Positions 10,367 to 31,569 of a DNA stretch of 64,000 bases are shown piece by piece. The stretch spans positions 1 to 64,000 of the forward strand of contig JAOARY010000005.1 of the NCBI GenBank assembly GCA_025210335.1, in the 5' to 3' direction. A program made the position numbers and the translations under genes. Below the pieces are notes generated by a model. It was not told the origin of the DNA. It searched no databases and was given only the letters and a program-made list of their open reading frames with translations. Every line of letters begins with the position of its first letter. Position 1 is the stretch's first letter. The stretch comes from Peptostreptococcaceae bacterium (GTDB lineage: Bacteria; Bacillota; Clostridia; Peptostreptococcales; Peptostreptococcaceae).

Positions 10367-10380
10367 AATAAACGTAAAAC

Positions 10381-12512: not shown

Positions 12513-12536
12513 TAAGAAATTAATAAGAACTTAAAT

Positions 12537-12635: not shown

Positions 12636-12690
12636 AAGCTTAAAATATGTATTTAATGAAAGATACAATTATTAAAAAGGTGGGATAAAT

Positions 12691-13196: not shown

Positions 13197-13199
13197 ATA

Positions 13200-13276
13200 A
13201 AAAGAATGATTTTTAATAATACAAGATAAAGTAGTTAAAATAGCTTGATAAATAGTTAAGAATCATTCTTTTTATT
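13200..13276 (+). terminator. Terminator-like inverted repeat before the tape measure gene
   Basis: A 12-bp perfect inverted repeat (13200-13211 with 13261-13272) is followed by TTTTTATTTT and encloses 49 bases. It lies between the chaperone and tape measure genes, so full termination is unlikely. It may tune the level of the downstream genes. Confidence 0.5.
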
Positions 13277-13305
13277 TTCTAAAAAATTAAGAAAGGAGGT
13301 TATAT

Positions 13306-15012: not shown

Positions 15013-15026
15013 AAAGAGGTGATAAA

Positions 15027-15458: not shown

Positions 15459-16416
15459 ATTATATTTGGTAAACAAAAATAAAATAGATATGACTAAATT
15501 TTTATTAAAATTAGAATTTAAATCAAATGAAGAAGAATTATCACAAGAATTAAGTTTTAGAGTTAATAAAAATATTATGAATTTGGATATAGAATTAGGC
15601 TCGATAGTTACTTTGGAAGATAAAGATGAAATCATAAGAGCAATAATAGTCCAAAAATCTATAGAAGATGAAGCTTTTGTAGAATATAAAGCGTTTGATT
15701 TTGGTTTTTATCTAAACAAATCTAAGGAAACATATCAATTCAAAAATGAAAAAATAAGCAATGCAATAGCTCAAATAGTTAAAGATGCAGGCATAAAAAT
15801 AGGAAATATCGCAAATATAAATATTAATGTCAAGAAAATATATAGAAATGAAAGATTAAGCGATATTATAAAAGATCTTATAGATATTGCATTTAAAGAA
15901 AGTAAACAAAAATATTATATGGAAATAAAAAATGGTAAGTTTTATTTATATGAAGAGATGTCAAATGTAATAGAGTCTTCATTTGTGATGAGTTCTAATT
16001 TAAATAAGAAAAATGTGTTTGATTTTATTATCAAAAAAACTCAAAATTTAAGTATTGAAAATATGAAAAATTCTATAAAAGTAATATCAAATGCAAATAA
16101 TTCAAAATTTGAATATGAAGCAAAGGATAATGCTCTTATAGATAAGTATGGTCTATTACAAGATGTAAAGATAATAGAAAATAAAGATATAGCTAAGGCT
16201 AAGAATATTGCAAATAATTTACTAAAAGATAATAAAAAAATAAAAAATGAATATAGCTTAGAGCTTATGGGTAATCCACATTTTAGAGCAAATAGAATTA
16301 TAAAATTAAAAGATAAAGAAATGAATGGGGATTATAAGATAATAAATGCTAATCATATATTAGAAGATGGTATTTATAAAATGAATATAAATATAAGAGA
16401 ATGTATTAAGTTATAG
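15451..16416 (+). CDS. xkdQ: Baseplate hub protein (XkdQ/gp27-like)
   Basis: A 321-aa protein with the XkdQ/late-control-D-like pattern: an N-terminal beta-rich region (ELSFRVNKN, GSIVTLEDKDE), a middle section (YRNERLSDIIKDLIDIAFKE) and a C-terminal return to beta structure with HFRANRIIKLKDKEMNGDYKI, typical of hub proteins with gp27/gpD fold. It should form the trimeric hub under the tube. It overlaps the previous gene by 8 bases and is followed by the DUF2577-like gene after 10 bases. Confidence 0.85.
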   Translation: MIKLYLVNKNKIDMTKFLLKLEFKSNEEELSQELSFRVNKNIMNLDIELGSIVTLEDKDEIIRAIIVQKSIEDEAFVEYKAFDFGFYLNKSKETYQFKNEKISNAIAQIVKDAGIKIGNIANININVKKIYRNERLSDIIKDLIDIAFKESKQKYYMEIKNGKFYLYEEMSNVIESSFVMSSNLNKKNVFDFIIKKTQNLSIENMKNSIKVISNANNSKFEYEAKDNALIDKYGLLQDVKIIENKDIAKAKNIANNLLKDNKKIKNEYSLELMGNPHFRANRIIKLKDKEMNGDYKIINANHILEDGIYKMNINIRECIKL

Positions 16417-16426
16417 GGGGGATTTT

Positions 16427-16762
16427 ATGGATGGGTATAGCAAAATAGCGAAATTATTTAGAGAAAGAGAAAATGTAGTACCTCTTAAGATTGAAGTTGC
16501 AACAGTTATCGCTGATTTTCCTGATATAAAATTAATGCTTGATAACAATAAGATAGTACTTGATAAAGACGAATTATTATTTAGTAGTGCAGTATTAAAA
16601 GATCATCAAAGAGAGTATGTTAGTAAATACGATGGTAGATTAAGTGATCAAAGAACAATTATATTTAAGGATTATAATATTAAACTAAATGATGAAGTTT
16701 TGGTACTACCTTTATATGATAATCAAAAATATTTTGTATTAGATAAGGTTGTGAAATTATGA
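16427..16762 (+). CDS. xkdR: XkdR-like baseplate protein (DUF2577)
   Basis: A 111-aa protein whose C-terminal half (SKYDGRLSDQRTIIFKDYNIKLNDEVLVLPLYDNQKYFVLDKV) matches the DUF2577/XkdR family found between XkdQ and XkdS in PBSX-type clusters. It is likely a small OB-like piece of the hub or spike. GGGGGG before the ATG is the ribosome site. Its stop overlaps the next start in an ATGA arrangement (4 bases), so translation is coupled. Confidence 0.8.
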   Translation: MDGYSKIAKLFRERENVVPLKIEVATVIADFPDIKLMLDNNKIVLDKDELLFSSAVLKDHQREYVSKYDGRLSDQRTIIFKDYNIKLNDEVLVLPLYDNQKYFVLDKVVKL

Positions 16763-17199
16763 TATTTCCAAAGAATTTTAATCTAAATCCTTCTATTTTG
16801 CAAAAAGAATATAAAAAAATCAAAAAAAATCTTCTTTTTGATTTTGATAAGAATGAATTTTGTCTAAAAGATGGAGATATAAAGAAAGTAGAAGGAAAAA
16901 AGAGTATAGAAATATGGATAGAAAAAATCCTAAGAACCAAAAAAGATAGATATAAAATTTATGAAAATAAAGATTATGGAATGAAGATAGAAGACTTACT
17001 TGTGGGACATAATTATACTCAAAGTTTTGTTGAATCTGAAATCAAAAGAGAAATAACAAAGGCATTAAAAAAACATCCTAAAATACAAAGTCTTAGTAAT
17101 TTTAAAATAACAAAGGACAATCCTTATTTGAATATAGATTTTGTAGTTAATTTAAGGGATGAATCTTTTAAAAAGGAGGTACAAATAGTCTATGAATAG
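16759..17199 (+). CDS. xkdS: XkdS-like baseplate wedge protein (gp25/DUF2634)
   Basis: A 146-aa protein. The segment IEIWIEKILRTKKDRYKIYENKDYGMKIEDLLVG is the diagnostic core of DUF2634/XkdS, the PBSX counterpart of the gp25 baseplate wedge protein. The C-terminal part (VESEIKREITKALKKHPKIQSLSNF) also fits. It joins the sheath initiator to the baseplate. It overlaps the genes on both sides (4 and 8 bases). Confidence 0.87.
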   Translation: MIFPKNFNLNPSILQKEYKKIKKNLLFDFDKNEFCLKDGDIKKVEGKKSIEIWIEKILRTKKDRYKIYENKDYGMKIEDLLVGHNYTQSFVESEIKREITKALKKHPKIQSLSNFKITKDNPYLNIDFVVNLRDESFKKEVQIVYE

Positions 17200-18247
17200 A
17201 GATGAATTTCAAAGACGTATGCTTGACCTTATAGATCCAGATTATGATAAATCAGAAGGGTCTTTTTTTTATGATGTATTAAAGCCTGTATCGATTGAAC
17301 TTGAAGAACTTGATAACAAAAGAGAAGAAAATATCAAATCTTTTTTTGTTGGGAATCATAAAAATTCTGCAAGTAATGAAATACTTGATATAAAGGCATT
17401 GGAAATAGGTCTAAAAAGAAAAGAAAGTAAAAAAGCTAGAGGATATATAAATATAAGAGCTAAGGAAGGTACCTTTGTAGAAAGAAATTCAGTAGTTACA
17501 AATGAAGATGGAACTATTGAATTTAAAATTTTACAAAGTATCAAAGTAGATGAAACCAATCAAGCAAAGATTCTTATTGAAGCTATTGAATCTGGTAAAG
17601 AGTCAAATATGCCACCAAATAGTATTAAACATTTTAAGACCTCAATATATGGAGTGTTAAGTCTTACAAATGAAGATTTAATAACGGGTGGAGAAGATAG
17701 AGAAAGTGATATAGAACTAACTAAAAGATATTTAGACCATGTTGGAAATATAGTTGTATATGGTAATGGAAACTATTACAAAAAACTTTCTAAAGATATA
17801 GAGGGAATTAAAGATGCGATAGTATATGAAGTTTTTGATGGTCCAAAAACATTAAAAATAGTTTTAATTGATGAAAATAACAGAACACCATCTAAAGCAA
17901 AAATAGATGAGGTAAAAGAGTATATCGAGCTTTATAGAATGCCTTGTGCAATGGTTAGTATAGAAGGTTGTGAAGAAAAATCTTTAGATATTTCTTTGAC
18001 TTTGGAATTAAAAGATGGGGTAGATAAAGAGATTCTAAAAGAAGAAATAGAATCAAAAATTAGATTCTATTTAAAAAACATGGATTTTAAAAAAGCTCAA
18101 AAAATAAGAAAAAATGAAATAGCTAAAATACTTCTAAATCATGAAGCTATTATTGATTATGTGGAACTTAAAATAAATAATAAGTTTGAAGATATAGATC
18201 TTTTAGAAGGTGAAGTTGGCTATTTAAATAGTTTGGAACTTAATTAA
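17192..18247 (+). CDS. xkdT: Baseplate J-like wedge protein (XkdT)
   Basis: A 351-aa protein of the baseplate J/gp47/XkdT family: N-terminus MNRDEFQRRMLDLIDPDYDKSEGSFFYDV, a middle domain with KARGYINIRAKEGTFVERNSVVTNEDG, the signature GGEDRESDIELTKRYLDHV, and the C-terminal ferredoxin-like part (KIRFYLKNMDFKKAQKIRKNEIAKILLN). With the XkdS and XkdU-like proteins it builds the baseplate wedges that trigger contraction. The length is normal. Strong AAAAGGAGG upstream. Confidence 0.93.
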   Translation: MNRDEFQRRMLDLIDPDYDKSEGSFFYDVLKPVSIELEELDNKREENIKSFFVGNHKNSASNEILDIKALEIGLKRKESKKARGYINIRAKEGTFVERNSVVTNEDGTIEFKILQSIKVDETNQAKILIEAIESGKESNMPPNSIKHFKTSIYGVLSLTNEDLITGGEDRESDIELTKRYLDHVGNIVVYGNGNYYKKLSKDIEGIKDAIVYEVFDGPKTLKIVLIDENNRTPSKAKIDEVKEYIELYRMPCAMVSIEGCEEKSLDISLTLELKDGVDKEILKEEIESKIRFYLKNMDFKKAQKIRKNEIAKILLNHEAIIDYVELKINNKFEDIDLLEGEVGYLNSLELN

Positions 18248-18258
18248 GGAGGAGTATT

Positions 18259-18642
18259 ATGAATGGTGGATTAACAGATTATATGAAAAACAAAATTATG
18301 AATTTGATGTTTAGAAATGAACCTTTAGAAAGTTTGGAAAATGTTTATTTGGGACTTTTTAATAAAAATCCATTAGAAAATGGTATAGAAATAGATAAAA
18401 GTGGTTACAAACGAGCATTAGCAAAATTTTGTGAAGCAAGTTCAGGAATTGTATCAAATGAAGAAGATGTATTATTTGAAGTAGCTACACAACCTTGGGG
18501 AGAAATTAGATTTATAGGAGTATTTGATAAAGAACAAGATGGAAATCTAATATGGTATGGAGAGTTTGAATTCCCTAAAAATTATGATGTATCTGATCAA
18601 ATGAAAATACCTAAAGGTGCATTTTCAATGAAAATATCCTAG
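18259..18642 (+). CDS. Phage tail structural protein (gp80/tail fibre Lp-like small protein)
   Basis: A 127-aa protein with the pattern LTDYMKNKIMNLMFRNEP...VYLGLFNKNP..., SGYKRALAKF, TQPWGEIRFIGVFDKEQDGNLIWYGEF and IPKGAFSMKIS. This YxGLF...W(G)xIxxxGxFD...GNLxYYG...IPxGA layout belongs to a widespread small phage structural family often annotated as tail fibre protein or gp80-like. Between XkdT and the XkdU-like gene it probably sits on the baseplate rim. Its precise role is not known to me. Confidence 0.7.
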   Translation: MNGGLTDYMKNKIMNLMFRNEPLESLENVYLGLFNKNPLENGIEIDKSGYKRALAKFCEASSGIVSNEEDVLFEVATQPWGEIRFIGVFDKEQDGNLIWYGEFEFPKNYDVSDQMKIPKGAFSMKIS

Positions 18643-18653
18643 GATGTGATTTA

Positions 18654-19472
18654 ATGATTATAACATTAGGAGCAACTTTTGAGAATTTAAAAAAATATAA
18701 ATATAAAGATTTAAAGCTTCGAACATGGGAAAGTCTTAATGGAAACTTGAATTTTGAAAGTAAGTTTGATTTAAACTTATCAAATGTCAAAATTAATAGT
18801 GAAAGCATAAATTTGAATTCAAAGGCATCTATAAATGCAATTTTAAGCAAGGAAAAAAGAGGTCTTGTAAAAATAGAATCAATATCCAGTGTAGATGTAA
18901 AAGTGGCATCATGGAGAAGAAATATAAGAAAAGATTTAATAAATTATATGCCTATTTATTATAGAAAATCAAAGATAATAGATATGCTTATGGGAATATA
19001 TGCTTCAAAATTAAGAGAACAATATTCTAAAAATGATAATATGAAAAAGCAATTCCTAATAGATGATGTAACATTTATGCTTCAATATTATGAAACAGAA
19101 TATCAAAAAAAATCTTCTTCATCAAAAATTGAAAAAAGACGAAAATTTTTATTAGCTAATAGATATGCTATAGGTAAAGTTATGAATATAACTGAACTTA
19201 AAAAGCTTATAAATATGTTTTATGATTGTGATATAATAGAAGATTTTAAAAATTCGACTGTAAATATAAGAATTAATGATATTTCTGTTGAAGAAAGTAT
19301 ATTATCAGATTTAAAGAAAATAGCAAGAACATTTATACCTGCACATGTGGATATCAAAATAATATATGATTTTTTAAGATGGAGAGAATTAGAAGCTTTA
19401 AATATGAAGTTTGGTCAAATGCAAAACTATACATGGCAAGCTTTAGAAATTTTAAATAAGAAGAAAAATTAA
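18654..19472 (+). CDS. xkdU: Baseplate wedge/tail protein (XkdU-like, DUF2313)
   Basis: A 272-aa protein. Residues about 97-272 fit DUF2313/XkdU (YMPIYYRKSKIIDMLMGIYASKL, ADNRYAIGK-type region, and ...FIPAHVDIKIIYDFLRWRELEAL, MQNYTWQALE). The N-terminal about 95 residues (TFENLKKYKYKDLKLRTWESLNG...) are an extra beta-rich segment not typical of XkdU and may be a fused attachment domain for the tip proteins that follow. It is the last gene of the baseplate block; the first terminator-like hairpin follows. Confidence 0.78.
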   Translation: MIITLGATFENLKKYKYKDLKLRTWESLNGNLNFESKFDLNLSNVKINSESINLNSKASINAILSKEKRGLVKIESISSVDVKVASWRRNIRKDLINYMPIYYRKSKIIDMLMGIYASKLREQYSKNDNMKKQFLIDDVTFMLQYYETEYQKKSSSSKIEKRRKFLLANRYAIGKVMNITELKKLINMFYDCDIIEDFKNSTVNIRINDISVEESILSDLKKIARTFIPAHVDIKIIYDFLRWRELEALNMKFGQMQNYTWQALEILNKKKN

Positions 19473-19493
19473 TAAGATTTTAAAAAGATATTG

Positions 19494-19534
19494 AAAAACT
19501 ATAATTTATGTATTAAATAAATTATAGTTTTTTA
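19494..19534 (+). terminator. Terminator hairpin before tip-protein gene 1
   Basis: A 15-bp stem (19494-19508 with 19518-19532) plus T run. The surrounding intergenic sequence, including the AAAAGGAAAAGGTGATTAG ribosome site region, is repeated almost exactly before gene 2 (20144-20216). Confidence 0.82.
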
Positions 19535-19566
19535 TTATAAAAAAATAAAAGGAAAAGGTGATTAGA

Positions 19567-20109
19567 ATGTCAGAAATAAAATTTAAAAAATATGAGTACC
19601 ATCATGAAGATCAAATGAAAAAGTATGGAAATTATTACGAAATGATGGGTTCGGTTGTAATTGGACCTCATTCAGAACAAATTGTAAAGGTACATCCAAA
19701 GAGAGGTCATAGAAAATTAGATAAAGTTAGAAATTTAGAATTATTCTTAAAAAGTGCTGATGGAGATTATGAAATGTTTATACAAGGATTTTCATATGGA
19801 GATACTATTATAGTAAATGGACCATATAGAACACCAAATGATAATCAAGCACAGGCTTCGTGGATGGTAAATGAACAAACTCCAATAGTTGGAGAAGGAT
19901 TTATACATGGAGAGTCGTATTTAAGAGGAACTATTAGACGTGGAGGTTCTTTATGTAGCACAATATTAGGTGCTGATATTAAAAGTAGAATAAAAGGGGT
20001 TAAATTATTAAGAATAGATATAGATGGAGATGTTCTTAAATTAGTATATAGAAATGAAACTGGAGATAGAGTAAATCCAATGTTTTTACTTAGAGGTTAT
20101 GGATTTTAG
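19567..20109 (+). CDS. Tip/receptor-binding-like protein, stand-alone copy 1
   Basis: A 180-aa protein. Start is the ATG at 19567 with AAGGTG upstream; the GTG at 19558 is part of the ribosome site. No signal peptide. It shares with copies 2 and 3 the N-terminus FKKYEYxxExQMKKYGNYYExMGSVVxGPHSE and the C-terminus RIDIDGDVLKLVYRNETG-RVNPMFLLRGYGF. The core GP...TPIVGEGFIHG...YLRG also occurs in the C-terminal domain of the three coiled-coil proteins at 21405-24190. By place and copy number it is probably a tail tip or receptor-binding protein or an adaptor; the fold is not recognised. Confidence 0.65.
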   Translation: MSEIKFKKYEYHHEDQMKKYGNYYEMMGSVVIGPHSEQIVKVHPKRGHRKLDKVRNLELFLKSADGDYEMFIQGFSYGDTIIVNGPYRTPNDNQAQASWMVNEQTPIVGEGFIHGESYLRGTIRRGGSLCSTILGADIKSRIKGVKLLRIDIDGDVLKLVYRNETGDRVNPMFLLRGYGF

Positions 20110-20143
20110 GATATTAAAAAATTAAAGTTTAAAAAAGGTATTG

Positions 20144-20184
20144 AAAAACTATAATTTATTTATTAAATGAATTATAGTTTTTTA
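20144..20184 (+). terminator. Terminator hairpin before tip-protein gene 2
   Basis: A near copy of the hairpin at 19494-19534: 20144-20158 pairs with 20168-20182, followed by TTTTTTATT. It lies inside a duplicated intergenic region. Confidence 0.82.
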
Positions 20185-20216
20185 TTATAAAAAAATAAAA
20201 GGAAAAGGTGATTAGA

Positions 20217-20750
20217 ATGGCAGAAAGAAAATTTAAAAAATATGAGTATACTTATGAGGAGCAAATGAAGAAATATGGAAATTATTACGAAATAATGGGT
20301 TCAGTTGTATTAGGACCACATTCTGAGGAAATTATAAAGGTATATCCAAAAAGAGGTCGCAAAAAAACTGATGACGTTAGAAATTTTGAATTATTTTTAA
20401 AGAGCAAAGATGGCAAGTATGAGATGTTTTTACAAGGATTTAATTATGGTAAATCTATTTCTGTTTTTGGTCCTTTTGTATATGAGGATGGAAGAGAAAG
20501 CGAAGGTCATTGGTTAGTTAATAAGGAAACTCCAATAGTAGGAGAAGGATTTATAAAAGGAACATCTTATTTAAGAGGTCAACATAGTGTTTTTCGTAGT
20601 GCAATATTAGATGGAAATATTAGAGATGTTATAAAAGGAGTTAAACTAGTAAGAATTGATATAGATGGAGATGTTCTTAAATTGGTGTATAGAAATGAAA
20701 CAGGAGAAAGAGTAAATCCAATGTTCTTGCTTAGAGGTTATGGATTTTAG
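20217..20750 (+). CDS. Tip/receptor-binding-like protein, stand-alone copy 2
   Basis: A 177-aa close paralogue of copy 1. Start ATG at 20217, with the same AAAAGGTGATTAG context. The N-terminal 40 and C-terminal 50 residues are nearly the same as in copy 1. The middle (RGRKKTDD, GKSISVFGPFVYEDGRESEGHW) differs more, which is the pattern expected if the ends are structural and the middle contacts a variable receptor. The region SVFGPFVYE...W...TPIVGEG also lines up with TGPYVY...GSW...PIVGK of the coiled-coil proteins downstream. Role inferred from context. Confidence 0.65.
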   Translation: MAERKFKKYEYTYEEQMKKYGNYYEIMGSVVLGPHSEEIIKVYPKRGRKKTDDVRNFELFLKSKDGKYEMFLQGFNYGKSISVFGPFVYEDGRESEGHWLVNKETPIVGEGFIKGTSYLRGQHSVFRSAILDGNIRDVIKGVKLVRIDIDGDVLKLVYRNETGERVNPMFLLRGYGF

Positions 20751-20768
20751 GATAAGTAAAAATAAACT

Positions 20769-20799
20769 AAAAGCTATATTTATAAATATAGCTTTTTTT
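20769..20799 (+). terminator. Terminator hairpin before tip-protein gene 3
   Basis: A perfect 28-base palindrome (20769-20782 with 20783-20796) followed by a T run. The sequence is unrelated to the two preceding hairpins, although the position is the same. Confidence 0.82.
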
Positions 20800-20831
20800 A
20801 ATACAAATATAAAAAAAGGATGGTAATAAAT

Positions 20832-21380
20832 ATGATTAAGTATGAATTTAAAAAATATGAATTTACAGATGAACAAAATATGAGAAGAACAGGTAATTAC
20901 TATGATGTAGCAGGTTCAGTAGCTTTAGGACCATATTCAGAAGAAGTCGTTGTAATAAGTCCTGAAAGTGGATTTGATAGACTTGATGAATTTAGAAATG
21001 TTGAGATACTAATGAAAAATCCTAGTGAAAAATATGATATTTTTATAAGAATTTTTGATTGGGGAAAAACTACATTGGTAAGTGGACCATCAGTATATGA
21101 AGGGAATAGACAGAATCAATTGTCTTGGTTTGTTAGCGAAAATATGCCTATAGTGGGACAAGGTTTACTACATGGTGAAAAATGTTTAAGAGGTGTATCA
21201 AAAGCAGGGAATGGATATTCTAGATCAAGTACTATATTGGGAGTGGACATACCTAGAAGAATAGAAGGTGTAAAGCTAGTAAGAATAGATAGAAGTGGTT
21301 CAAATTTAAAATTAATATATAGAAATGAAACTGCAGATAGAGTAGATGGAAAATTTATATTAAGAGGATATGCATATTAA
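20832..21380 (+). CDS. Tip/receptor-binding-like protein, stand-alone copy 3
   Basis: A 182-aa, more distant paralogue of copies 1 and 2. The start at ATG 20832 is preferred because AAAAAAGGATGG (20813-20824) is its ribosome site; an ATG at 20820 lies within that site. It keeps YEFKKYEFTDEQNMRRTGNYYD..., VSGPSVYEGN, MPIVGQGLLHGEKCLRG and LKLIYRNETADRVDGKFILRGYAY. It is followed after 24 bases, without a terminator, by the first coiled-coil fibre. Probably a third variant of the same tip component. Confidence 0.65.
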   Translation: MIKYEFKKYEFTDEQNMRRTGNYYDVAGSVALGPYSEEVVVISPESGFDRLDEFRNVEILMKNPSEKYDIFIRIFDWGKTTLVSGPSVYEGNRQNQLSWFVSENMPIVGQGLLHGEKCLRGVSKAGNGYSRSSTILGVDIPRRIEGVKLVRIDRSGSNLKLIYRNETADRVDGKFILRGYAY

Positions 21381-21404
21381 ATATTAAGAGGAGATGATTA
21401 GAAA

Positions 21405-22505
21405 ATGAGTAGTTTAAAAACAAATGAATACAAACTGCATAAATGGGAAGATGACGACAATGTAAGTCGAGTTGAATTTAATGAGAATTTTGATAAATTA
21501 GATAATAAATTAAAAGAAATAGATAGTGTATCGAATAATATTTATGATAAAACAAATAATTTACAAGAACAGATTTCTATACAAAACACAAAATATGAAG
21601 AATTAAACAATAAGATAAAAAATGATGTTGGTGATATAAGTGGTTCTTTGTCATCAAATATAAATACAATTAATAACAAAATTAAAGCAAATACAAATTC
21701 TGTATCTAGTTTAGATAGAAAGATAACAGATAATAAAAATTTTATAGATACTACAAATAAAAAGATAGATTCAAACTCAACATCTTTAACATCAAAAATA
21801 TCATCAAATACTTCAAAAATAACAACGAATAAAAATAATATAACAAAAGCAAATGAAGCAATTACAGGTATAAAAAGTACTACTGCAACATTAATAAATA
21901 ATTATAAAAAAATACAAAGTAGTGTTAACACTCAAAATCAAAAAAATGATATATTAGATTCAGATATAAAAGCAATCAATAAAAGTATACATGATTTGAA
22001 GATAACATCAGATGTACACAGTCAGTACACAGATAGTGGTCTTGCAAGTTACAAAACGGGGAGAGGTAGTATAAGAATTAATGTAGATAGAAATTCTTTA
22101 GGTTCATTTGATGTTAGTCCTAAAATTTGTAGAGGACGCATAATTAAAAAAGCGATATTTACAATTTCAAGCAAGGATGAAATTGTAAGTATAAAAATGG
22201 AAACTATAAAAGAGGGGCAAGGTTGGTTTGTAACAGGGCCATATGTATATAATAGAAAAACTTATTTTGGCTCATGGTACACAGATGGAAAGCCTATAGT
22301 TGGAAAGGATTATAATGGTATATTAAGAGGGGCTATCATGGATGGAAATACTATAAAAACTATATTTGGAACTGGTTCCAATGTTGAAAATTGTAAAATA
22401 AGAGAAGCTTTCATAAATGATAAATCTAATAAAATAACATTTAGATATGAAAATGAGAAAAATTCGTTTTATTCAGATATAAAAATTGATGGAATTGGTA
22501 TTTAG
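21405..22505 (+). CDS. Tail fibre 1: anchor, coiled coil and receptor-binding-like domain
   Basis: A 366-aa protein in three parts. The N-terminus (NEYKLHKWEDDDNVSRVEFNENFDKLD) matches the baseplate-anchor motif of many phage fibres and resembles the short fibres at 25855 and 30157. Residues about 38-205 are Ser/Asn/Lys-rich heptad-like coiled coil. Residues about 215-366 (TGPYVYNRKTYFGSWYTDGKPIVGKDYNGILRGAIMDG..., KITFRYENEKNSF...KIDGIGI) are the same domain as in the next two genes and a relative of the three stand-alone proteins upstream. A trimeric fibre carrying the receptor-binding domain at its tip is the likely structure. Confidence 0.75.
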   Translation: MSSLKTNEYKLHKWEDDDNVSRVEFNENFDKLDNKLKEIDSVSNNIYDKTNNLQEQISIQNTKYEELNNKIKNDVGDISGSLSSNINTINNKIKANTNSVSSLDRKITDNKNFIDTTNKKIDSNSTSLTSKISSNTSKITTNKNNITKANEAITGIKSTTATLINNYKKIQSSVNTQNQKNDILDSDIKAINKSIHDLKITSDVHSQYTDSGLASYKTGRGSIRINVDRNSLGSFDVSPKICRGRIIKKAIFTISSKDEIVSIKMETIKEGQGWFVTGPYVYNRKTYFGSWYTDGKPIVGKDYNGILRGAIMDGNTIKTIFGTGSNVENCKIREAFINDKSNKITFRYENEKNSFYSDIKIDGIGI

Positions 22506-22535
22506 AAAAATAAATTTATGAATGGAGAGCTTAGT

Positions 22536-23336
22536 ATGAGTAGAATAGAAAGTATAGAAAAAAAATTATTAGATGTAAATGTAAAATTAGAATCTAATGG
22601 ATTTGAATTAAGAGATATAGAAGAGGATGTAAAAACAATAAAAAAAATGATTGAGGAGATGAAGGAAATGGAAAATACAAATACACAAAAAGAGTGCATA
22701 TTAAATGATAAGGTAGCTGAAATAGAAGTTAAAATAGGAGAATTAACAAAAGAGCTAAATATAATTGAAGAAAATACTACAAAACTAAATGAAGTTGAAA
22801 AAGATTTAGATAAATTACAAAGAGAAACAAATATTGAATATACAATATTAAAACAATATGCAGATAATGGGCTGGCTATGTATGGAAATAATCATATTAC
22901 AATTAGAGCAAATATAAAACCAGGGTTTGATAAATTTGAAATTGAGCCAAAGGGTTGTAGAGGTATAGAAATAAAAAAAGCAAAAATGGTAATGTCAAGT
23001 AAAGATAGCTTGGTAAATATAAAAATGGAAACATTAAAAGAGGGGCAAGGTTGGTTTGTAACAGGATCATATGTATATGATGGACAAACATATTATGGTT
23101 CATGGTATGCAAATGGGAGTACACCAATAGTAGGGAAAGGTAATGATGGAATTATAAGAGGTGCAATGATGCATGGAAATTCTATAAAGACTATATTGGG
23201 AATGGGTGTTAATGCAGAAAATTGTAAGATAACAGAAGCTCACATAGATCCTAAGACAAATAAAATAACATTTAGATATATGAATGATAGAAATGCTTTT
23301 TATTCAGATATAAAAATTAATGGTATTGGTATATAG
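22536..23336 (+). CDS. Tail fibre 2: short coiled coil plus receptor-binding-like domain
   Basis: A 266-aa protein starting at ATG 22536 (TGGAGAG upstream), which aligns with the start of the next gene; the ATG at 22518 precedes the ribosome site. Residues 1-105 are a charged coiled coil (IESIEKKLLDVNVKLESNGFELRDIEEDV...) without the classic anchor motif. Residues about 113-266 are the shared tip domain (EGQGWFVTGSYVYDGQTYYGSWYANGSTPIVGKG..., IIRGAMMHG). It is a tandem duplicate of the following gene, with the same length and near-identical N-terminal DNA. It may bind through a different baseplate protein than fibre 1. Confidence 0.72.
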   Translation: MSRIESIEKKLLDVNVKLESNGFELRDIEEDVKTIKKMIEEMKEMENTNTQKECILNDKVAEIEVKIGELTKELNIIEENTTKLNEVEKDLDKLQRETNIEYTILKQYADNGLAMYGNNHITIRANIKPGFDKFEIEPKGCRGIEIKKAKMVMSSKDSLVNIKMETLKEGQGWFVTGSYVYDGQTYYGSWYANGSTPIVGKGNDGIIRGAMMHGNSIKTILGMGVNAENCKITEAHIDPKTNKITFRYMNDRNAFYSDIKINGIGI

Positions 23337-23389
23337 CAAAGAAATAAAAATGTATATAAAAAAATGAATTTATAAATGGAGAGATTAAT

Positions 23390-24190
23390 ATGAAGACAAT
23401 AGAGAATATAGAAAAAAAATTACTAGATGTAAATGTAAAATTAGAATCTAATAGATTTGAATTAAGAGATATAGAAGAAGATGTAAAAATAATAAAAAGA
23501 ATGATTGAGAAGATGAAAGAAATGGAAAATACAAACACACAAAAAGAATGCATGTTAAAAAATAAAGTAGCTGAAATAGAAGTTAAAATAGAAAAAATAA
23601 AAACAAAGTTGAATATAGTTGCACAAAATAGCATTAAATTAAATAAAATTGAAAAAGATTTAGATAATTTACAAAGAGAAACAGATATCGAGAATTCAAT
23701 ATTAAAACAATATGTAGATAATGGACTAGCTCTGTATGAAACGGGAAGAGGTCAATTAGAAATAAATATAGAGAAAGGATTTAATGAATTTGAAATTGAG
23801 CCAAGTGGTTGTAGAGGTGTAGTAATTAAAAAAGCTAAAATAATAATGACAAGTGAAGATGGTTTAGTGAGTCTAAAATTAGATACATTAAAGCTAGGTC
23901 AAGGTTTGATTGTAACAGGACCATACGTATATAATGGACAAACATACTTTGGATCATGGGATGCTTGCGCTGGAGATCCTATAATAGGAGAAGATAGAAA
24001 TGGAATTATAAGAGGGGCGATTATGGATAATGGTCAAATTAAAACTGTATTTGGAAAAGAAATAAATGAGGAAGGTTTAAAAGTAACAGAAGCATTTATA
24101 AATCCAAAAACTAATAAATTAATTTTTAGATATATAAATGATGGAAATAAATTCAAAACGAATATAAAAATACAAGGTTTAGGAATATAA
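23390..24190 (+). CDS. Tail fibre 3: short coiled coil plus receptor-binding-like domain
   Basis: A 266-aa tandem paralogue of fibre 2. The first about 75 residues are almost identical in sequence and DNA, and the tip domain (residues about 113-266; VTGPYVYNGQTYFGSWDACAGDPIIGEDRNGIIRGAIMDNG) has diverged more. This gives three different tip domains on fibre-like stalks in one operon. GGAGAG before ATG 23390. The holin gene follows with one base between stop and start, so they are coupled. Confidence 0.72.
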   Translation: MKTIENIEKKLLDVNVKLESNRFELRDIEEDVKIIKRMIEKMKEMENTNTQKECMLKNKVAEIEVKIEKIKTKLNIVAQNSIKLNKIEKDLDNLQRETDIENSILKQYVDNGLALYETGRGQLEINIEKGFNEFEIEPSGCRGVVIKKAKIIMTSEDGLVSLKLDTLKLGQGLIVTGPYVYNGQTYFGSWDACAGDPIIGEDRNGIIRGAIMDNGQIKTVFGKEINEEGLKVTEAFINPKTNKLIFRYINDGNKFKTNIKIQGLGI

Positions 24191-24191
24191 T

Positions 24192-24593
24192 TTGGAAGAT
24201 AAAATAATAAATAATTCTTTAATTGCACTTTTTGGAACCATAGGAAGTATACTTGTAGGAAGTTGGGATAGTAATATACAAATACTATTTTTATTTCTGA
24301 TAACAGATTATATAAGTGGTATCATGAAGGGAATAAAAGAAAAGAATATATCAAGTCAGACAGGATTTAAAGGAATATTAAAAAAGATTGCAATATTTAT
24401 GGTGATTATAGTAGCGCATCAATTAGATATTATATCGAACTTAGAAAATCCAATGTTTAAAACTATGACTATATATTTTTATATAGGAAATGAAGGAATA
24501 TCTATAATAGAAAATTTAAGTGTTTTAGGTGTAGCATTTCCTAAATTTATAGAAGAAAGATTAAAGAATATAAAAGAAAATAATACAAAATAA
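24192..24593 (+). CDS. Holin (phage lysis / toxin secretion holin family)
   Basis: A 133-aa membrane protein with TTG start (AGGA seven bases upstream, at the end of the previous gene). It has three or four hydrophobic segments and the motif LITDYISGIMKGIKEKNISSQTGFKGILKK, diagnostic of the TcdE/holin-4 family (D-Y-xx-G...G.kG). Holins let tailocin particles escape by making pores that admit an endolysin. It is the last gene before a strong terminator. No endolysin gene was recognised nearby. Confidence 0.9.
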   Translation: MEDKIINNSLIALFGTIGSILVGSWDSNIQILFLFLITDYISGIMKGIKEKNISSQTGFKGILKKIAIFMVIIVAHQLDIISNLENPMFKTMTIYFYIGNEGISIIENLSVLGVAFPKFIEERLKNIKENNTK

Positions 24594-24636
24594 AAAATAA
24601 TGCTGTCTTAAAATTTAAGACAGCATTATTTTTTTA
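24594..24636 (+). terminator. Strong terminator of the tail operon
   Basis: A 16-bp perfect stem (24595-24610 with 24615-24630), AAAT loop and a T run directly after the holin stop. It ends the main tailocin operon. Confidence 0.93.
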
Positions 24637-24706
24637 CAAAAAAATTTAAAAGATATATTAGAGAAAATATAATATTATTTAAAATTATAAATAAGAGGTG
24701 ATTGAA

Positions 24707-25783
24707 ATGCCAAACCTTAAATTTTTTGATGGCAAAAAATATGTAGAACCTAAGATAAAATTATATGATGATAAAAAGAAAGTATGGTTGGAAATTTGCA
24801 ACAAATATAAGAGAGTTTCAATGATACATAAAGAACTTTTTTTCACAGATAGTGATGAAGTTATAAATTCAGATGAATGTATAGGTAAAATATTTCAAAT
24901 AAATGATGAGTTAATTATTTTAAGAGGTAGCAGTGTTTATAAATATAAGTTAAATTCAAACAATATTTATGAAAGAATTCTAGAAAAAAAGGTATCAGGG
25001 CTACTAAGAAATAGTAATTCGCCAAATAATGTTAAATTATATTTTTTAAAAAATCATTTATATGTAAGTAATGTAGAATCAAATACCATTGGAGAAATAG
25101 ATATAGATACATTAGAAACAAAATTTTCTATATATACTTTTTCTCAGGCGCATATGGAGTGTTATGAAGATTGTTTATATGTTTCAGGACAAAGAAAAGT
25201 GAATATTTATAATTCAAATATGAAATCTATAAATAGTATAAATATATCCCCTAACAAATTTAATTTAAAAGTAGATAAAACAGGAGTTTATTTAGCGACG
25301 AATCATAGAAAATATTCAATTCAAAAATATGATTTTGAAGGAAATAGATTATGGGAAATAGATAAAGAAGAAATTGATTTTAGTTTTTATAATGCATTTT
25401 GTCATTTAGATGAGAAATATTTATATATACAAAGTGGTAAATCTGGAGCTATGAATATTTATAAAATAGATAAAAAGACAGGTAGTGTGATATACAAAAA
25501 GAGATTGGATAAAATAAATGATTATGAAGTCATAGATGGAAATTTATATATCATTGACAATGAATTATTGTATTTTAGACATGTGAATTTAGAAAGCGGA
25601 GAAATAACAGAATATGACTTTGATTATAATAATATAAAAGATCCTTTTTGTGTTTCTAAAGTTTCAATAAATAAGTATGAAGATAAACTTATGCTAGTTG
25701 TATTATTAAAAAACCCAAAAAATTCAAATATTCAAAAGTTATCAATGTTTTATATAAACCCAAATGTATATATAAAAAAATAA
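24707..25783 (+). CDS. Beta-propeller-like tail-associated protein 1
   Basis: A 358-aa protein starting at ATG 24707 (AGAGGTG upstream; GTG at 24698 belongs to the ribosome site). The first 30 residues (LKFFDGKKYVEPKIKLYDDKKKVWLEI) resemble the start of small phage tail-tip proteins. The rest shows about six repeats of four beta-strands with IxxIDxxTxE or IYKIDKKTGSVIYKKRL motifs, a propeller-like pattern. It has no signal peptide. With the short fibre just downstream it forms a unit that recurs, inverted, at 28082-30157. A carbohydrate-binding or tip function is plausible but unproven. Confidence 0.6.
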   Translation: MPNLKFFDGKKYVEPKIKLYDDKKKVWLEICNKYKRVSMIHKELFFTDSDEVINSDECIGKIFQINDELIILRGSSVYKYKLNSNNIYERILEKKVSGLLRNSNSPNNVKLYFLKNHLYVSNVESNTIGEIDIDTLETKFSIYTFSQAHMECYEDCLYVSGQRKVNIYNSNMKSINSINISPNKFNLKVDKTGVYLATNHRKYSIQKYDFEGNRLWEIDKEEIDFSFYNAFCHLDEKYLYIQSGKSGAMNIYKIDKKTGSVIYKKRLDKINDYEVIDGNLYIIDNELLYFRHVNLESGEITEYDFDYNNIKDPFCVSKVSINKYEDKLMLVVLLKNPKNSNIQKLSMFYINPNVYIKK

Positions 25784-25854
25784 AGATTTAAATTTTTTTT
25801 ACAGATAATATGTTAATAAATATTTAGAGTAAAATTTTATTGAGGAGATTAATT

Positions 25855-26109
25855 ATGAATAAAACAAAATATTTAAAACTAAATAAACTTGATTCTAACG
25901 ATTTAATAAATATTGAATCATTTAATATGAATACTAATATTTTAGAACAAAAGATTAAAGATATGAGTATAGCTATAGAGGATAATAAATTGAAAATAGA
26001 ACAAAAAATAAATGAGCAAGATAAAAATAGACCAAATATAATAGTTTCAACAGAGGTTCCAAAATCACCATCACAAAATGATATTTGGATAGATATTAAT
26101 TGTGATTAA
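25855..26109 (+). CDS. Short tail fibre (anchor plus coiled coil only)
   Basis: An 84-aa protein. Start at ATG 25855 after GAGGAG. The N-terminus (KYLKLNKLDSNDLINIESFNMNTNILEQKI) is the fibre-anchor motif seen in the 366-aa fibre and in the protein at 30157. A short coiled coil follows and the protein ends VPKSPSQNDIWIDINCD, a motif that in longer fibres links to a receptor-binding part. It is therefore probably a fibre that has lost its tip, or a bare anchor for the propeller protein encoded just upstream. Confidence 0.6.
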   Translation: MNKTKYLKLNKLDSNDLINIESFNMNTNILEQKIKDMSIAIEDNKLKIEQKINEQDKNRPNIIVSTEVPKSPSQNDIWIDINCD

Positions 26110-28081: not shown

Positions 28082-29431
28082 TTATAAAATATCAAATTTG
28101 GTGTAAAATCCCCTAAGAGCGGTACGAGAACCAATACGTCCATTCATTTTAGTAGTTTTAGCATATACATCATAGGAATAAGAAACTATTACAGTATCAC
28201 TAGATGTGATATCAATACTAATAATAAGAGCTGATTCATGAGTTTCATTATAAATATAATTGCTATTTTCTAATTTTGAATTAAAATGTCTTTCGCAGAA
28301 TTTAAAAATATGTTTGTATAGATGTACAGATGTATTATTTAAATCAGAAGGAATTCTAAATTTTTCAAGATAATATCCAGGACCATCTTTTTTTTCACAC
28401 ATAGACATTCTGTATAGATTATACATACCATTATCATTATTTAATGCATGGTGGAATGTTGTTTTTTTATCGATATCATACAAAGTTTTGAATGAAAGAT
28501 TTTCAAAATCGAAAGCGATATGATAATTTAGAAGAATATATCGGTTATTTATATTATAAGCACTATCTAATTTTGTTAGGCGATTATTATCTATAAGGAT
28601 TCTCTGGTTTTGATGATTGTATATGAAAATACCTAAATTATAAATATGAATTATATATTTTGATGTCTTTATAATTTTTGAAAAATTAACAACTGGATAT
28701 TTATCTTTATTTTTTGATATCCCATTTAGTTCTCTTATTTTGACTCCATTTGAATTATAAGTATAAAGAGAAAATTCATGATTACTAAATCTTAATATAT
28801 TTATTTCGTTATCGTACATGGATGAAAATATAAAGTTAGTAGCTGTATTTACATGTGAACTAAAAATTGTAAATTTAGTAATTAAACTCAGAGAGTGTGT
28901 GTAAATGAGTACATTAATATGCGCTGTATTTTTTACTATCATTTTTTGAATTACATAAAGATTATTTTTATATTTTTTAAATGAACAGGTGTTTTGTAAA
29001 TTTAATTTTTTTGTTAAATTAATATTTTTATTATGAATATTATTTAATATAAATATATTCGAATATACAGAATGTTCTTTTTTATAGTTTATAACTAAGA
29101 TATTATCATATAAATTAATACCACAAGCATATTGTAAATCAACTTGTTTGGATAGGAGAACCTCATTTAAATCCAAATCTATGATTTGGATAGTAGAATC
29201 AGAATCCAAATAGTTATTGCCTCGGACATAAGCTTTTGTTTTTTTTAGATAGATAACTTTATTAGTATTTGGTATTAGAACAAATCCTTTCATATATTTA
29301 TTGCCATGTTCTTCTGCTTGAATAGAAATGTCTTGGAATATTTTAGATGTTGGTAAAAATTTTGGTTTTTGTTTTAAATTTTCTAATTTAACTTTATTTA
29401 AATTTTTTATATTTGTACTACCTATAGCCAT
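28082..29431 (-). CDS. Beta-propeller-like tail-associated protein 2
   Basis: A 449-aa minus-strand protein (GGGAGG before the ATG). After a 35-residue leader it has repeated beta-rich units (IQIIDLDLNEVLLSKQVDL, NIFILNNI, LYTYNSNGVKIREL, GIFIYNHQNQRILI) typical of a propeller, and a C-terminal beta-domain (ESALIISIDITSSDTVIVSYSYD). No signal peptide. It lies 12 bases after the fibre gene at 29444-30157, the same association as propeller 1 and its short fibre, but inverted. Likely a second tip or receptor-recognition protein for the tailocin; the exact function is unknown. Confidence 0.6.
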   Translation of the reverse strand: MAIGSTNIKNLNKVKLENLKQKPKFLPTSKIFQDISIQAEEHGNKYMKGFVLIPNTNKVIYLKKTKAYVRGNNYLDSDSTIQIIDLDLNEVLLSKQVDLQYACGINLYDNILVINYKKEHSVYSNIFILNNIHNKNINLTKKLNLQNTCSFKKYKNNLYVIQKMIVKNTAHINVLIYTHSLSLITKFTIFSSHVNTATNFIFSSMYDNEINILRFSNHEFSLYTYNSNGVKIRELNGISKNKDKYPVVNFSKIIKTSKYIIHIYNLGIFIYNHQNQRILIDNNRLTKLDSAYNINNRYILLNYHIAFDFENLSFKTLYDIDKKTTFHHALNNDNGMYNLYRMSMCEKKDGPGYYLEKFRIPSDLNNTSVHLYKHIFKFCERHFNSKLENSNYIYNETHESALIISIDITSSDTVIVSYSYDVYAKTTKMNGRIGSRTALRGFYTKFDIL

Positions 29432-29443: not shown

Positions 29444-30157
29444 CTAAAAATTATTAATTAAAATATCTGCATTCAATGATTGTTGTGGAATGGAATTACT
29501 GTAAATTTCTATATAACCATTAAATGAATTTACATAAGATTTTATTTGAGATTTTTGTGCATGTTTATAGCTTGATTGGTTAAAATTTACATTTACGATA
29601 TCATTAGATGTAAAAATAGAATTATAAATTTTTATTTTATAGCCATTTTCATTTTTTACAAAATTATTTGGATCAAGTTGTACATTAAATAAAGCCTGGG
29701 TCTTATTATTTATTAGGTTTAAAATTTCTGTATTTTTTTGATTGATTAATTTTAAAATATCTGCGTTTTTCTGATTAATTGAAGCTTGAAGTTTTTTATT
29801 TTCATTTTTTAAACTAATTATTTCTGAAGTTAAATTTTTTATATTACTATTTTGTAAATTAGACAAGGCTTTGTTTATATAAGTTATTGTTTTTTTATTT
29901 TCAGTATCAATATTATTTATTTTAAAATCTAAATTATTGATAGAATTTTTGATTTCAGTATTATTTTTAAATAATTTTGAATAATTTTTATTTAATAAAT
30001 TAATATCTATATTAATGGTATTAATAAATTCCTTTACTTGAATAGACACAGTTTCAATTCCTTTATCAATTATATCTGTATTATCATTAAATATTTTCAA
30101 ACTTACAAAATCGTTATGACTTGGTTTTTTTATTTTTAAAAATTTACTTAGTTGCAT
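29444..30157 (-). CDS. Tail fibre with anchor and coiled coil (second cassette)
   Basis: A 237-aa protein. Its N-terminus (KFLKIKKPSHNDFVSLKIFNDNTDIIDKGI) is the phage fibre-anchor motif also seen at 21405 and 25855. Residues about 40-170 form a coiled coil with NQKNADI/NQKNTEI repeats. The C-terminal about 65 residues (TSNDIVNVNFNQSSYKHAQ..., GYIEIYSNSIPQQSLNADILINNF) are a small beta-domain. Strong AAAAGGAGG upstream. It is co-directional with the split-sigma genes before it and the propeller gene after it. Confidence 0.7.
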   Translation of the reverse strand: MQLSKFLKIKKPSHNDFVSLKIFNDNTDIIDKGIETVSIQVKEFINTINIDINLLNKNYSKLFKNNTEIKNSINNLDFKINNIDTENKKTITYINKALSNLQNSNIKNLTSEIISLKNENKKLQASINQKNADILKLINQKNTEILNLINNKTQALFNVQLDPNNFVKNENGYKIKIYNSIFTSNDIVNVNFNQSSYKHAQKSQIKSYVNSFNGYIEIYSNSIPQQSLNADILINNF

Positions 30158-30220: not shown

Positions 30221-30415
30221 TTAAATTTCAAATGAATAAACACATTTTATTAGTTGAAGTATTAAACTTTGATAACAATCATTATTAAAATCCCCATCTA
30301 TAAAAGAGTTTTTAACAAGTAATGGTTCAAAATCGTTAATTATTTTTTCAAGGGCTATTTTATTTTGATTTTTGGCACTAAGAATTAGTTTTTTTATATT
30401 TTTTTCACAAAACAT
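30221..30415 (-). CDS. Sigma region 2-like half of a split sigma factor (RsoA/HTH_16-like)
   Basis: A 64-aa protein (AAGGAGG before the ATG). The sequence (SAKNQNKIALEKIINDFEPLLVKNSFIDGDFNNDCYQSLILQLIKCVYSF) matches the helix-turn-helix 16/UviA-type N-terminal module, which corresponds to sigma region 2.1-2.2 in group V sigma factors such as TcdR/BotR. Here it is a stand-alone gene. B. subtilis RsoA is a comparable small region-2 protein that works with the separate region-4 protein SigO. The gene directly upstream (30428-30838) encodes such a region-4 protein, 12 bases away. Confidence 0.68.
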   Translation of the reverse strand: MFCEKNIKKLILSAKNQNKIALEKIINDFEPLLVKNSFIDGDFNNDCYQSLILQLIKCVYSFEI

Positions 30416-30427
30416 ATAAGAACCTCC

Positions 30428-30838
30428 TTAATTATCAGAATAGTTATATATTATTTTTAATTTCTTTAAAGCTTTTCTTTTGATATTGTTTATATTTTGA
30501 TATGAAGTATTTAATTGCTCAGCTACTATTCTTTCGTTTAGATCCTCTATATAAATTTTATAAATTATTTTTTTTTGCAATAAAGTTAAATTCTTAGATT
30601 TTTTTAATGTATCTCTTTTGATAAAATTATCAAAAAAATCTATTATGTCTTTATCTTCAACAGGAGAATCCGTATAAGGCATATAATCTAAAAATGCATT
30701 TTTATTTTCTAAAATGATATTATTAGTTCCTAAAGAACATTCTGATTTTTTTAATTTATAATACTGCTTTTTAAAATCTAAAGCCTTAAATTCGATGCTT
30801 TTTTTTATATAGCTTAAAAAATTAGTTTTAATACTCAT
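30428..30838 (-). CDS. Sigma region 4-like half of a split sigma factor (SigO-like)
   Basis: A 136-aa protein (AAGGTGG before the ATG). Residues about 75-130 have sigma-70 region 4 features (NLTLLQKKIIYKIYIEDLNERIVAEQLNTSYQNINNIKRKALKKLK: an acidic helix followed by a helix-turn-helix). The N-terminal half shows no region 2. Together with the downstream 64-aa protein it would make a complete two-piece sigma factor like SigO/RsoA. It is the first gene of the leftward operon and is preceded by a promoter (30954-30982) overlapped by operator-like repeats, so it is probably repressed by the XRE protein encoded at 31168. Likely targets are the fibre/propeller genes or the main tail operon. Confidence 0.7.
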   Translation of the reverse strand: MSIKTNFLSYIKKSIEFKALDFKKQYYKLKKSECSLGTNNIILENKNAFLDYMPYTDSPVEDKDIIDFFDNFIKRDTLKKSKNLTLLQKKIIYKIYIEDLNERIVAEQLNTSYQNINNIKRKALKKLKIIYNYSDN

Positions 30839-30861
30839 AATACCACCTTTTTTAATTTGAA

Positions 30862-30913
30862 TTTAAAGGGGCAGTTGCAATAAAAAATATATTATTGTAA
30901 CTGCTCCTTTAGA
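30862..30913. repeat. Hairpin element in the leftward leader (relative of 12537-12635)
   Basis: An 18-bp stem (30865-30882 with 30893-30910) with G-U pairs, extended by two or three more pairs. The left arm GGGGCAGTTGCAATAA resembles the arm of the hairpin at 12537. No T run follows on either strand, so it is not an ordinary terminator. It lies in the predicted 5' leader of the split-sigma operon. It could be a miniature inverted-repeat element or an RNA regulatory structure. Confidence 0.55.
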
Positions 30914-30953
30914 AGGAGTTATAAAAATTGTAATTTGGTTTGGCTCTGTGAAT

Positions 30954-30982
30954 ACTATAACATTGTAAATAAATTTTGTAAA
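30954..30982 (-). promoter_or_regulatory. Leftward promoter of the split-sigma operon
   Basis: On the minus strand TTTACA (30977-30982) and TATAGT (30954-30959) are separated by 17 bases, a good sigma-A promoter. Operator-like repeat O1 (30976-30994) covers the -35. Confidence 0.6.
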
Positions 30983-31139
30983 GTGAATTTACAATATTTT
31001 TTGTAAATCAATATTACAAAAAATATTGTAATATTGATTTGTAAAAAGTATATACAATTAATTTCAACTGTTGTCAATCAACAAATTTGTTTATAGAAAT
31101 TTGATTTTTATTAAAAAATATTGTAAAATGAATTTATAA
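30976..31139. promoter_or_regulatory. Four-copy operator region of the divergent switch
   Basis: Four 19-bp TTGTAA...-type sites: 30976-30994 (7-bp arms TTGTAAA/TTTACAA), 31001-31019, 31026-31044 (inverted copy of the second), and 31121-31139 (near copy of the first). The outer sites overlap the leftward -35 and the rightward -10. This layout is typical for a phage-type repressor controlling itself and a divergent operon; the XRE protein at 31168 is the obvious candidate. This and the hairpin fill the 329-base gap 30839-31167. Confidence 0.6.
31101..31129 (+). promoter_or_regulatory. Rightward promoter of the XRE repressor gene
   Basis: TTGATT (31101-31106), 17 bases, TAAAAT (31124-31129), about 38 bases before ATG 31168. 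Site O4 (31121-31139) overlaps the -10, which suggests autoregulation. Confidence 0.55.
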
Positions 31140-31167
31140 TAACTAAATATAAAAAGGAGTTATTGTT

Positions 31168-31569
31168 ATGAAAATATTTGAAAAGAAAGAGTGGGCTAGT
31201 ATTTTAAAAAAAGCTATGGGTAAAGATTCTCAAACCAAGTTTGCAAAGCAAGCTGGTGTTAGCAGAGTTAGCTTAAATTATTATTTAAATGAAAAATCAT
31301 CAAGTCAGCCAAGTTATGATTATGCTATAAAAATTTCAAATGCATCAGAATTTGTTAGTACAAATGAAGTTTTAATAGCTGCGGGATATGATCCGCTAAA
31401 AGAAGAATTAAATGTAGAAAGAGGAAATCAAGAAGAGGCACTATTAAAAGATATAATGCACCTATTACTAAAAGAAGGTGAGATCTCTTATGGTGAAGAA
31501 TTGAGTGAAGAAAAAAGATTAGAAGTTGTAAATTTGTTAAAAAAGAGCATCGAAATAAAAAAAATATAG
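31168..31569 (+). CDS. XRE-family transcriptional repressor
   Basis: A 133-aa protein with an N-terminal XRE/Cro-CI helix-turn-helix (residues about 8-65: SQTKFAKQAGVSRVSLNYYLNEKSSSQPSYDYAIKIS) and an acidic helical C-terminus (residues about 85-133), probably for dimerisation. No peptidase domain, so no LexA-type autocleavage. AAAAGGAG before the ATG. It is divergent from the split-sigma operon, with repeated operators between, so it probably represses both promoters. It may control when the alternative fibre cassette or tailocin is made. Confidence 0.8.
   Translation: MKIFEKKEWASILKKAMGKDSQTKFAKQAGVSRVSLNYYLNEKSSSQPSYDYAIKISNASEFVSTNEVLIAAGYDPLKEELNVERGNQEEALLKDIMHLLLKEGEISYGEELSEEKRLEVVNLLKKSIEIKKI

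Follow-up and report, generated by a model that had tools for sequence, protein, structure and literature searches.

A sigma factor encoded in two pieces and kept under a divergent XRE-family repressor probably starts a contractile tailocin operon and adds an alternative fibre to its products, with a second, LexA-boxed pair in the same genome converging on the same promoter. This reading comes from a 64,000-nucleotide stretch of Peptostreptococcaceae DNA (the window) and from its comparison with the rest of the genome and with relatives. Collectively, the results suggest that split sigma factors are recurrent, often LexA-boxed controllers of antagonism-like genes in Clostridia, with a promoter signature that can be read. 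Two questions become testable: how Clostridia switch on tailocins that lack their own LexA box, and whether the choice of sigma factor lets a cell select its tailocin tip.

The XRE and split sigma locus

The genes of the locus and the leader of its sigma mRNA are as follows.

30428..30838, minus strand: 136-aa sigma subunit (Pfam Sigma70_r4; family profile on a 192-aa single-chain sigma)
30221..30415, minus strand: 64-aa HTH_16 protein, predicted sigma region 2.1-2.2 subunit (Pfam HTH_16; PDB region-2 matches)
31168..31569, plus strand: XRE-family repressor, 133 aa, divergent (Pfam HTH_3)
29444..30157, minus strand: putative cassette fibre, 237 aa (N-terminal likeness to an 89-aa protein of the main tailocin operon)
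28082..29431, minus strand: 449-aa protein, 3' of the cassette fibre (ORF, position)
30864..30911, minus strand: 5' leader of the sigma mRNA, forming a strong hairpin (-20.2 kcal/mol, z -7.3)

A sequence-only reading of this DNA had placed a 136-aa region-4 protein and a 64-aa HTH_16 protein in separate, adjacent genes, and both the ORFs and Pfam agree with it. The 64-aa protein matched HTH_16 (E 1.5e-10, 41.5 bits, cut-off 22), the 136-aa protein Sigma70_r4 (E 3.3e-6, 27 bits, cut-off 24.1) and the 133-aa protein HTH_3 (E 3.1e-5, 24.3 bits, cut-off 23), with no peptidase domain found in the last by Pfam. The XRE protein gave no match in phages or in the PDB and, among 61 relatives, weak matches in 2 other genomes. 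Searches with the region-4 protein against phages and plasmids (tblastn) and against viral contigs gave no match. The leader hairpin consists of three 6-bp stems with A-C mismatches between them, and neither it nor the window region had a match in Rfam.

The gap between the 64-aa gene and the fibre gene is 63 bp, and its folding is no better than that of shuffles (z 0.3). A scan of 29400-31800 that missed the hairpin shown by folding 3' of the XRE gene returned no terminator-like sites, and its silence is weak evidence. On the far side of the 449-aa gene, at its 3' end, a TPR-repeat gene lies in three frames (26681-27985, minus strand), with breaks at two runs of 9-10 A that reflect either sequencing error or phase variation. 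Downstream of the XRE gene, behind a terminator-like hairpin, are DUF1659 and DUF2922 genes (31705-32211, plus strand).

Four 19-bp sites and two promoter-like hexamer pairs lie between the divergent genes.

30976..30994, no strand: putative operator 1 (0 mismatches to TTGTAANNNNANTTTACAA; covers the -35 of the sigma-operon promoter)
31001..31019, no strand: putative operator 2 (1 mismatch to TTGTAANNNNANTTTACAA)
31039..31057, no strand: putative operator 3 (2 mismatches to TTGTAANNNNANTTTACAA)
31121..31139, no strand: putative operator 4 (1 mismatch to TTGTAANNNNANTTTACAA; overlaps the XRE promoter)
30954..30982, minus strand: promoter-like TTTACA-17-TATAGT of the sigma operon, with a TG extension before the -10 (hexamer scan)
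31111..31140, plus strand: promoter-like TTAAAA-18-TATAAT of the XRE gene (hexamer scan)

The sites have the form TTGTAAN7TTACAA, two of them exactly and two with one or two changes. Their positions and those of the hexamers bear out the earlier description of a divergent XRE gene with four TTGTAA-type sites, one over each promoter. Elsewhere in the 64-kb window no other place with 0 or 1 mismatch to TTGTAANNNNANTTTACAA was found; at up to 3 mismatches the motif was not enriched (81 places against 70.8 expected), so that only the four-site cluster is diagnostic. The exact form occurs at 4 places genome-wide, 2 of which are at this locus. We rejected the TTGTAA sites as a genome-wide regulon: with up to one mismatch they number 89, and the reversed pattern gives 60, which is too weak a difference. 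Overall, the hexamer scan found 23 promoter sites, no more than in shuffles (24). As judged from this arrangement, the XRE protein would bind the four sites and repress both the sigma operon and its own gene.

Position of the break in the sigma chain

Profiles of the two partners were matched to single-chain sigma factors. On a 192-aa sigma they lay end to end, the HTH_16 profile covering residues 5-66 and the region-4-protein profile residues 63-187. The same two profiles covered residues 33-94 and 93-215 of a 221-aa sigma, and residues 8-68 and 66-191 of a 194-aa sigma, each from a related genome. On the 230-aa SigH-like protein of the genome itself, the HTH_16 profile covered residues 38-98, and a broader region-4-partner profile started at residue 95, at the FSKFAKMCINRQIISAI stretch, which we take to be region 2.3-2.4. 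In the PDB, the HTH_16-partner profile matched region 2.1-2.2 of SigF, SigW and SigA, ending at the last 2.2 helix, and the region-4-partner profile matched region 4 of FliA and others.

From this tiling, with its junction near residue 65, the break falls within region 2, which leaves both promoter-reading parts, 2.3-2.4 and 4, in the 136-aa protein. The earlier label of a region-4 protein holds for region 4 but not for region 4 alone. That the two genes encode a split sigma was also proposed in the sequence-only reading, and the tiling of one single-chain sigma by the profiles of the pair supports it. The 136-aa and 64-aa proteins are predicted to be halves of one sigma factor that would bind each other and RNA polymerase. 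The C-terminal half is encoded first and the N-terminal half second. A structure model of the 136-aa protein was of too low confidence (pLDDT 57) to count as evidence.

The tailocin operon and the alternative fibre

The main operon and its candidate promoter lie on the plus strand.

9848..26109, plus strand: contractile tailocin operon with sheath, YQBQ-like, Baseplate_J, holin and tail-tip genes (ORFs, Pfam)
9785..9826, plus strand: candidate tailocin-operon promoter, GGTTGATT-N18-TCTTAT-N5-GTAAG (sole signature match in the 3.28-Mb genome)

The operon encodes a contractile tail and has no head genes. At 19558-24190 (plus strand) it contains six paralogous tail-tip genes in tandem. They fall into two groups, of 183, 180 and 186 aa (45-68% identity) and of 366, 272 and 266 aa (46-64%), with weak similarity between the groups, and represent a local expansion of what are probably receptor-binding modules.

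Residues 1-43 of the cassette fibre resemble residues 6-48 of the 89-aa protein encoded by the last gene of the main operon (35% identity, E ~1e-5 in a 13-protein database), as would be expected if the two proteins dock at one place. The sigma operon had been read as continuing into a fibre and a propeller gene. The likeness to the main-operon protein supports the fibre, but the propeller could not be confirmed: the 449-aa protein matched no family below E 0.02, and its structure model was not usable (pLDDT 34). Its gene position suggests that it may be a further tip protein.

Among relatives, the sheath gave 23 matches in 15 genomes, the window's own included. None of the 12 sheath loci besides that of the window had the promoter signature described below, in flanks of 1.5 kb only and with several of the loci belonging to a prophage rather than a tailocin. 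In one relative's sheath operon (L221), unlike the window, a LexA box directly follows a TTGACG promoter before the first gene.

A promoter signature associated with the split sigma factors

Genes beside or near the relatives' pairs share the signature GGTTGAYT-N17-20-TYTTAT-N4-5-GTARG. It was spotted by comparing the relatives' promoters with that of the window and was not framed blind; the counts came later. Across 297 genomes of the order, the strict form gave 27 sites, spread over 11 genomes, compared to 1 site for a reversed-pattern control. Of the 15 pair-bearing genomes (region-4-partner profile score above 100 bits) 8 contain it, and of the 282 without the pair 3 do (Fisher 7e-10, for genomes that are not phylogenetically independent). 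A looser form, in which one position also admits a G that occurs upstream of the region-4 gene in a relative, gave 33 sites in 30 chosen genomes, with 3 for its reversed control. The strict form has T at this position, and the window site still fits.

Seven of the 15 pair-bearing genomes have no signature (G038, G051, G057, G082, G094, G106 and G116), and three genomes have the signature without a strong pair. By eye, GGTTTAC stands at the -35 place before the BhlA genes of G038 and G106, and the seven genomes may use another -35. The Tepidibacter genome whose pair groups with the window genome's own two pairs also has the signature. A single stretch among viral contigs matched the signature, and it lies within coding sequence on an unrelated contig.

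In the window genome the only match, at 9785-9826, ends ~22 bp before the first tailocin ATG, and among 30 signature loci read, only that of the window heads a tail operon. Its -35 half coincides with the right arm and T-tract of a strong terminator-like hairpin after the preceding gene (z -6.4), which would fit a terminator followed by an ordinary promoter, both unrelated to the sigma pair. We consider this quite unlikely: the reversed pattern has one site in 297 genomes, 100 Markov simulations of the window gave 1 signature match, and the site is directly before the tailocin operon. Moreover, the signature of relatives often lies between divergent genes, where a terminator would serve no purpose. 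The association with the pairs instead suggests that the split sigma reads the signature promoter. Since the signature is tied to split sigmas and its single genomic site precedes the tailocin operon, the factor probably switches the whole particle on. Control of the whole particle had been raised as a guess from the sequence, and it is this single site that supports it.

By eye, the genes headed by the signature in relatives encode small proteins of ~120-145 aa and amidase-, L,D-transpeptidase- and C39-like proteins. Pfam gave no family above cut-off for the four small proteins scanned (L054, L057, L058 and L059). There are up to 9 signature sites per genome (G146), with small glycine-rich proteins of ~120-145 aa and cell-wall-enzyme-like proteins (L186-L215, L252-L270). 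Together, these genes look like an SOS-to-sigma regulon of antagonism proteins.

At 26 distinct sites of relatives (L187-L215), the signature is followed by a conserved leader of ~40 nt (GTARGRC ... GGCC ...), in which short complementary arms stand on either side of the inner GGCC. RNAalifold on an alignment of 24 of the 26 leaders (L186, L189 and L195 being excluded from the leader list) gave four pairs, one with double changes, in a consensus that folds weakly; no Rfam family was found for these leaders. The tail operon of the window is without this leader.

A second pair behind a LexA box

The same genome has a second split pair on another contig (C32; L004:6689-7275), with a region-4 protein of 124 aa and an HTH_16 protein of 65 aa. 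It has no XRE gene. Its promoter, TTGACT-16-TATAAT, is directly followed by a LexA-type box, 39-50 bp before the start. Beyond the pair lies a divergent gene for a 141-aa protein without known Pfam family.

LexA control was read as an exact GAACN4GTTC in the 400 bp before the region-4 gene. Such a box precedes 12 of 21 relatives' pairs as well as the genome's own second pair, compared to none of the 80 split sigmas of the class that lie outside the family and include Tn916 types (Fisher 2e-10). This count excludes L065 and L068, which have broken or partial region-4 frames and of which L065 has a box. The same box is found before recA and uvrB of the genome. Of the 191 remaining ORFs at the family loci, 8 likewise have a LexA-type box within 400 bp. 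Genome-wide, LexA-type boxes are not enriched (12 vs 17), so only their position and the family contrast carry weight.

A LexA-type box is absent before the window pair, and none was found anywhere in the 64-kb window; SOS control of the tailocin, if any, would therefore run via the second pair. The simplest history would be that the window copy swapped LexA control for XRE control. The recognition helices of the two pairs are nearly identical (NTSYQNIN and NTTYQNIN), which suggests that both pairs read one promoter. The second pair is as good a candidate for the tailocin promoter as the first, and the earlier picture of a self-contained switch at the window locus is not upheld. Either pair alone could be the active one there.

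One way to take this is that only the LexA-boxed pair drives the tailocin, the window pair, a diverged copy, being used for the fibre cassette or hardly at all. The LexA box shared with relatives' pairs and the SOS induction of diffocins, as given in the accessible part of the source, favour it, as does the position of the window copy on the longest branch of its group in a tree of the region-4 partner. However, the window copy has open reading frames for both halves, each scoring above its Pfam cut-off, its recognition helix is retained, and so is the repressor with four operators beside it. On balance we regard a role for the LexA-boxed pair alone as somewhat improbable, and favour both pairs acting on the tailocin promoter.

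Distribution of the pair and of the XRE trio

The region-4-partner profile had a strong match in 15 of 297 genomes of the order, with 24 matches in total; the window's region-4 protein scored 160.6 bits against a family profile that includes it. In 20 regions taken from other genomes we identified 23 region-4 genes of the family, of which 19 are directly followed by an HTH_16 gene. Some HTH_16 match occurs in 241 of 391 genomes of the class. At the standalone HTH_16 loci of the class, which number 88 after five duplicate places were removed from the fetched loci, a region-4 gene lies directly upstream in 72 cases, and in the close family in 19 of 20.

Among named relatives the nearest is a Tepidibacter MAG, which suggests Peptostreptococcaceae as the window's family. 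The region-4-partner tree, which took in the own family only, groups the window pair with the second pair and that of Tepidibacter, the last two being sisters (support 90). Adjoining the Tepidibacter split pair is a sigma-like gene in two frames of 128 and 81 aa (L053:2661-3305, minus strand). In another relative (L052), a YvrJ gene lies between the two halves.

A search for the trio with the divergent XRE gene, as the sequence-only reading had proposed, had a divided outcome: the trio was present at 14 of the 88 HTH_16 loci of the class, in the same orientation and mostly with Tn916-sized genes, and at none of the 20 close-family loci. At one of the 14 (L161), a tet(M)-like gene, a 117-aa XRE gene, genes for proteins of 143 and 76 aa, xis and int were recognised by eye, and the DNA is 99.9% identical to plasmid copies. 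The XRE trio elsewhere thus occurs mainly in Tn916-type elements.

The identical orientation raises the prospect that the trio is related to the Tn916-type orf9/orf7/orf8 module or is what remains of one, left by an integrated element and near the tailocin by chance. This appears very doubtful. Profile matches place the window proteins in the other family, whose pairs often have a LexA box, as the score given above indicates, and the 76-aa Tn916 HTH_16 protein reached only E 8e-4 against the family HTH_16 profile. In addition, no xis, integrase or conjugation genes were seen by eye among the window ORFs, and the family signature is present at the tailocin promoter.

Proposed mechanism

We propose that the 64-aa protein would supply region 2.1-2.2 and dock on RNA polymerase, and that the 136-aa protein would supply regions 2.3-2.4 and 4 and read the promoter. 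The XRE protein would keep the sigma operon and its own gene off via the four operators. On its release, transcription from the housekeeping-type promoter would yield both halves together with the fibre and the 449-aa protein. Once assembled, the sigma would transcribe the tailocin operon from the sole signature promoter at 9785-9826, and particles would be made while the extra tip proteins are present. After DNA damage, the LexA-boxed second pair would also turn this operon on, but no extra tip proteins would be made with it.

A bolder version, which we put forward tentatively as a possibility short of an even chance, is that two paralogous two-piece sigmas, one with LexA as its master and the other with XRE, share one promoter and that the choice of sigma sets the tip: damage would give the standard particle and XRE release a retargeted one.

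Comparison with known systems

In the accessible parts of the published work, SigO and RsoA of Bacillus subtilis (YvrI-YvrHa) supply sigma-4 and sigma-2 parts, both of which are needed and are used as an AND gate (PMC8103513, PMC10028694). As at the window, the halves are encoded in separate genes of one operon. SigO-RsoA serves oxdC-yvrL, yvrJ and itself, whereas the target of the window pair would be a tailocin, and these parts describe no divergent XRE gene of the kind that stands at the window pair. The resemblance to SigO/RsoA noted from the sequence stands, but it is not exclusive: the trio is also the arrangement of the Tn916 orf9/orf7/orf8 module. The gene order of sigO-rsoA is presumably that of the window pair. 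One study reportedly has a region 2.3-like segment in RsoA; going by its title, the segment would be in RsoA there, whereas the 2.3-2.4-like segment here is in the region-4 protein.

The Tn916 module likewise has a divergent XRE gene followed by a region-4 gene and an HTH_16 gene. It differs in that it is part of a conjugative transposon, its two genes overlap by 4 bp, and xis and int lie beyond. In Tn916, orf7 up-regulates xis and int, and Orf9 is believed to be its repressor (PMC7288454). Tn916 Orf7/Orf8 may be a split sigma.

UviA and TcdR (group V) are, in the accessible part of the source, clostridial sigma factors for bacteriocins and toxins, UviA being one chain with regions 2 and 4 and the window factor two chains. 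UviB is a BhlA-type holin; a BhlA gene lies beside the split pair in 4 of the relatives scanned, and none was found in the window genome. PBSX of Bacillus subtilis works in a similar way, with a sigma-like factor, Xpf, serving the tail particle of a defective phage. Xpf is listed as a single chain that has both sigma domains, whereas the sigma of the window is in two. PBSX Xre is a small XRE repressor with several operators.

Among titles and opening lines of abstracts in the open-access literature searched, neither a split sigma controlling a tailocin nor a LexA-controlled split sigma was found. The device itself is known from SigO-RsoA and from Tn916 orf7/8/9, and the present wiring was not found in print. 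A two-subunit sigma factor is known experimentally from SigO-RsoA; here, the signature points to a whole contractile tailocin.
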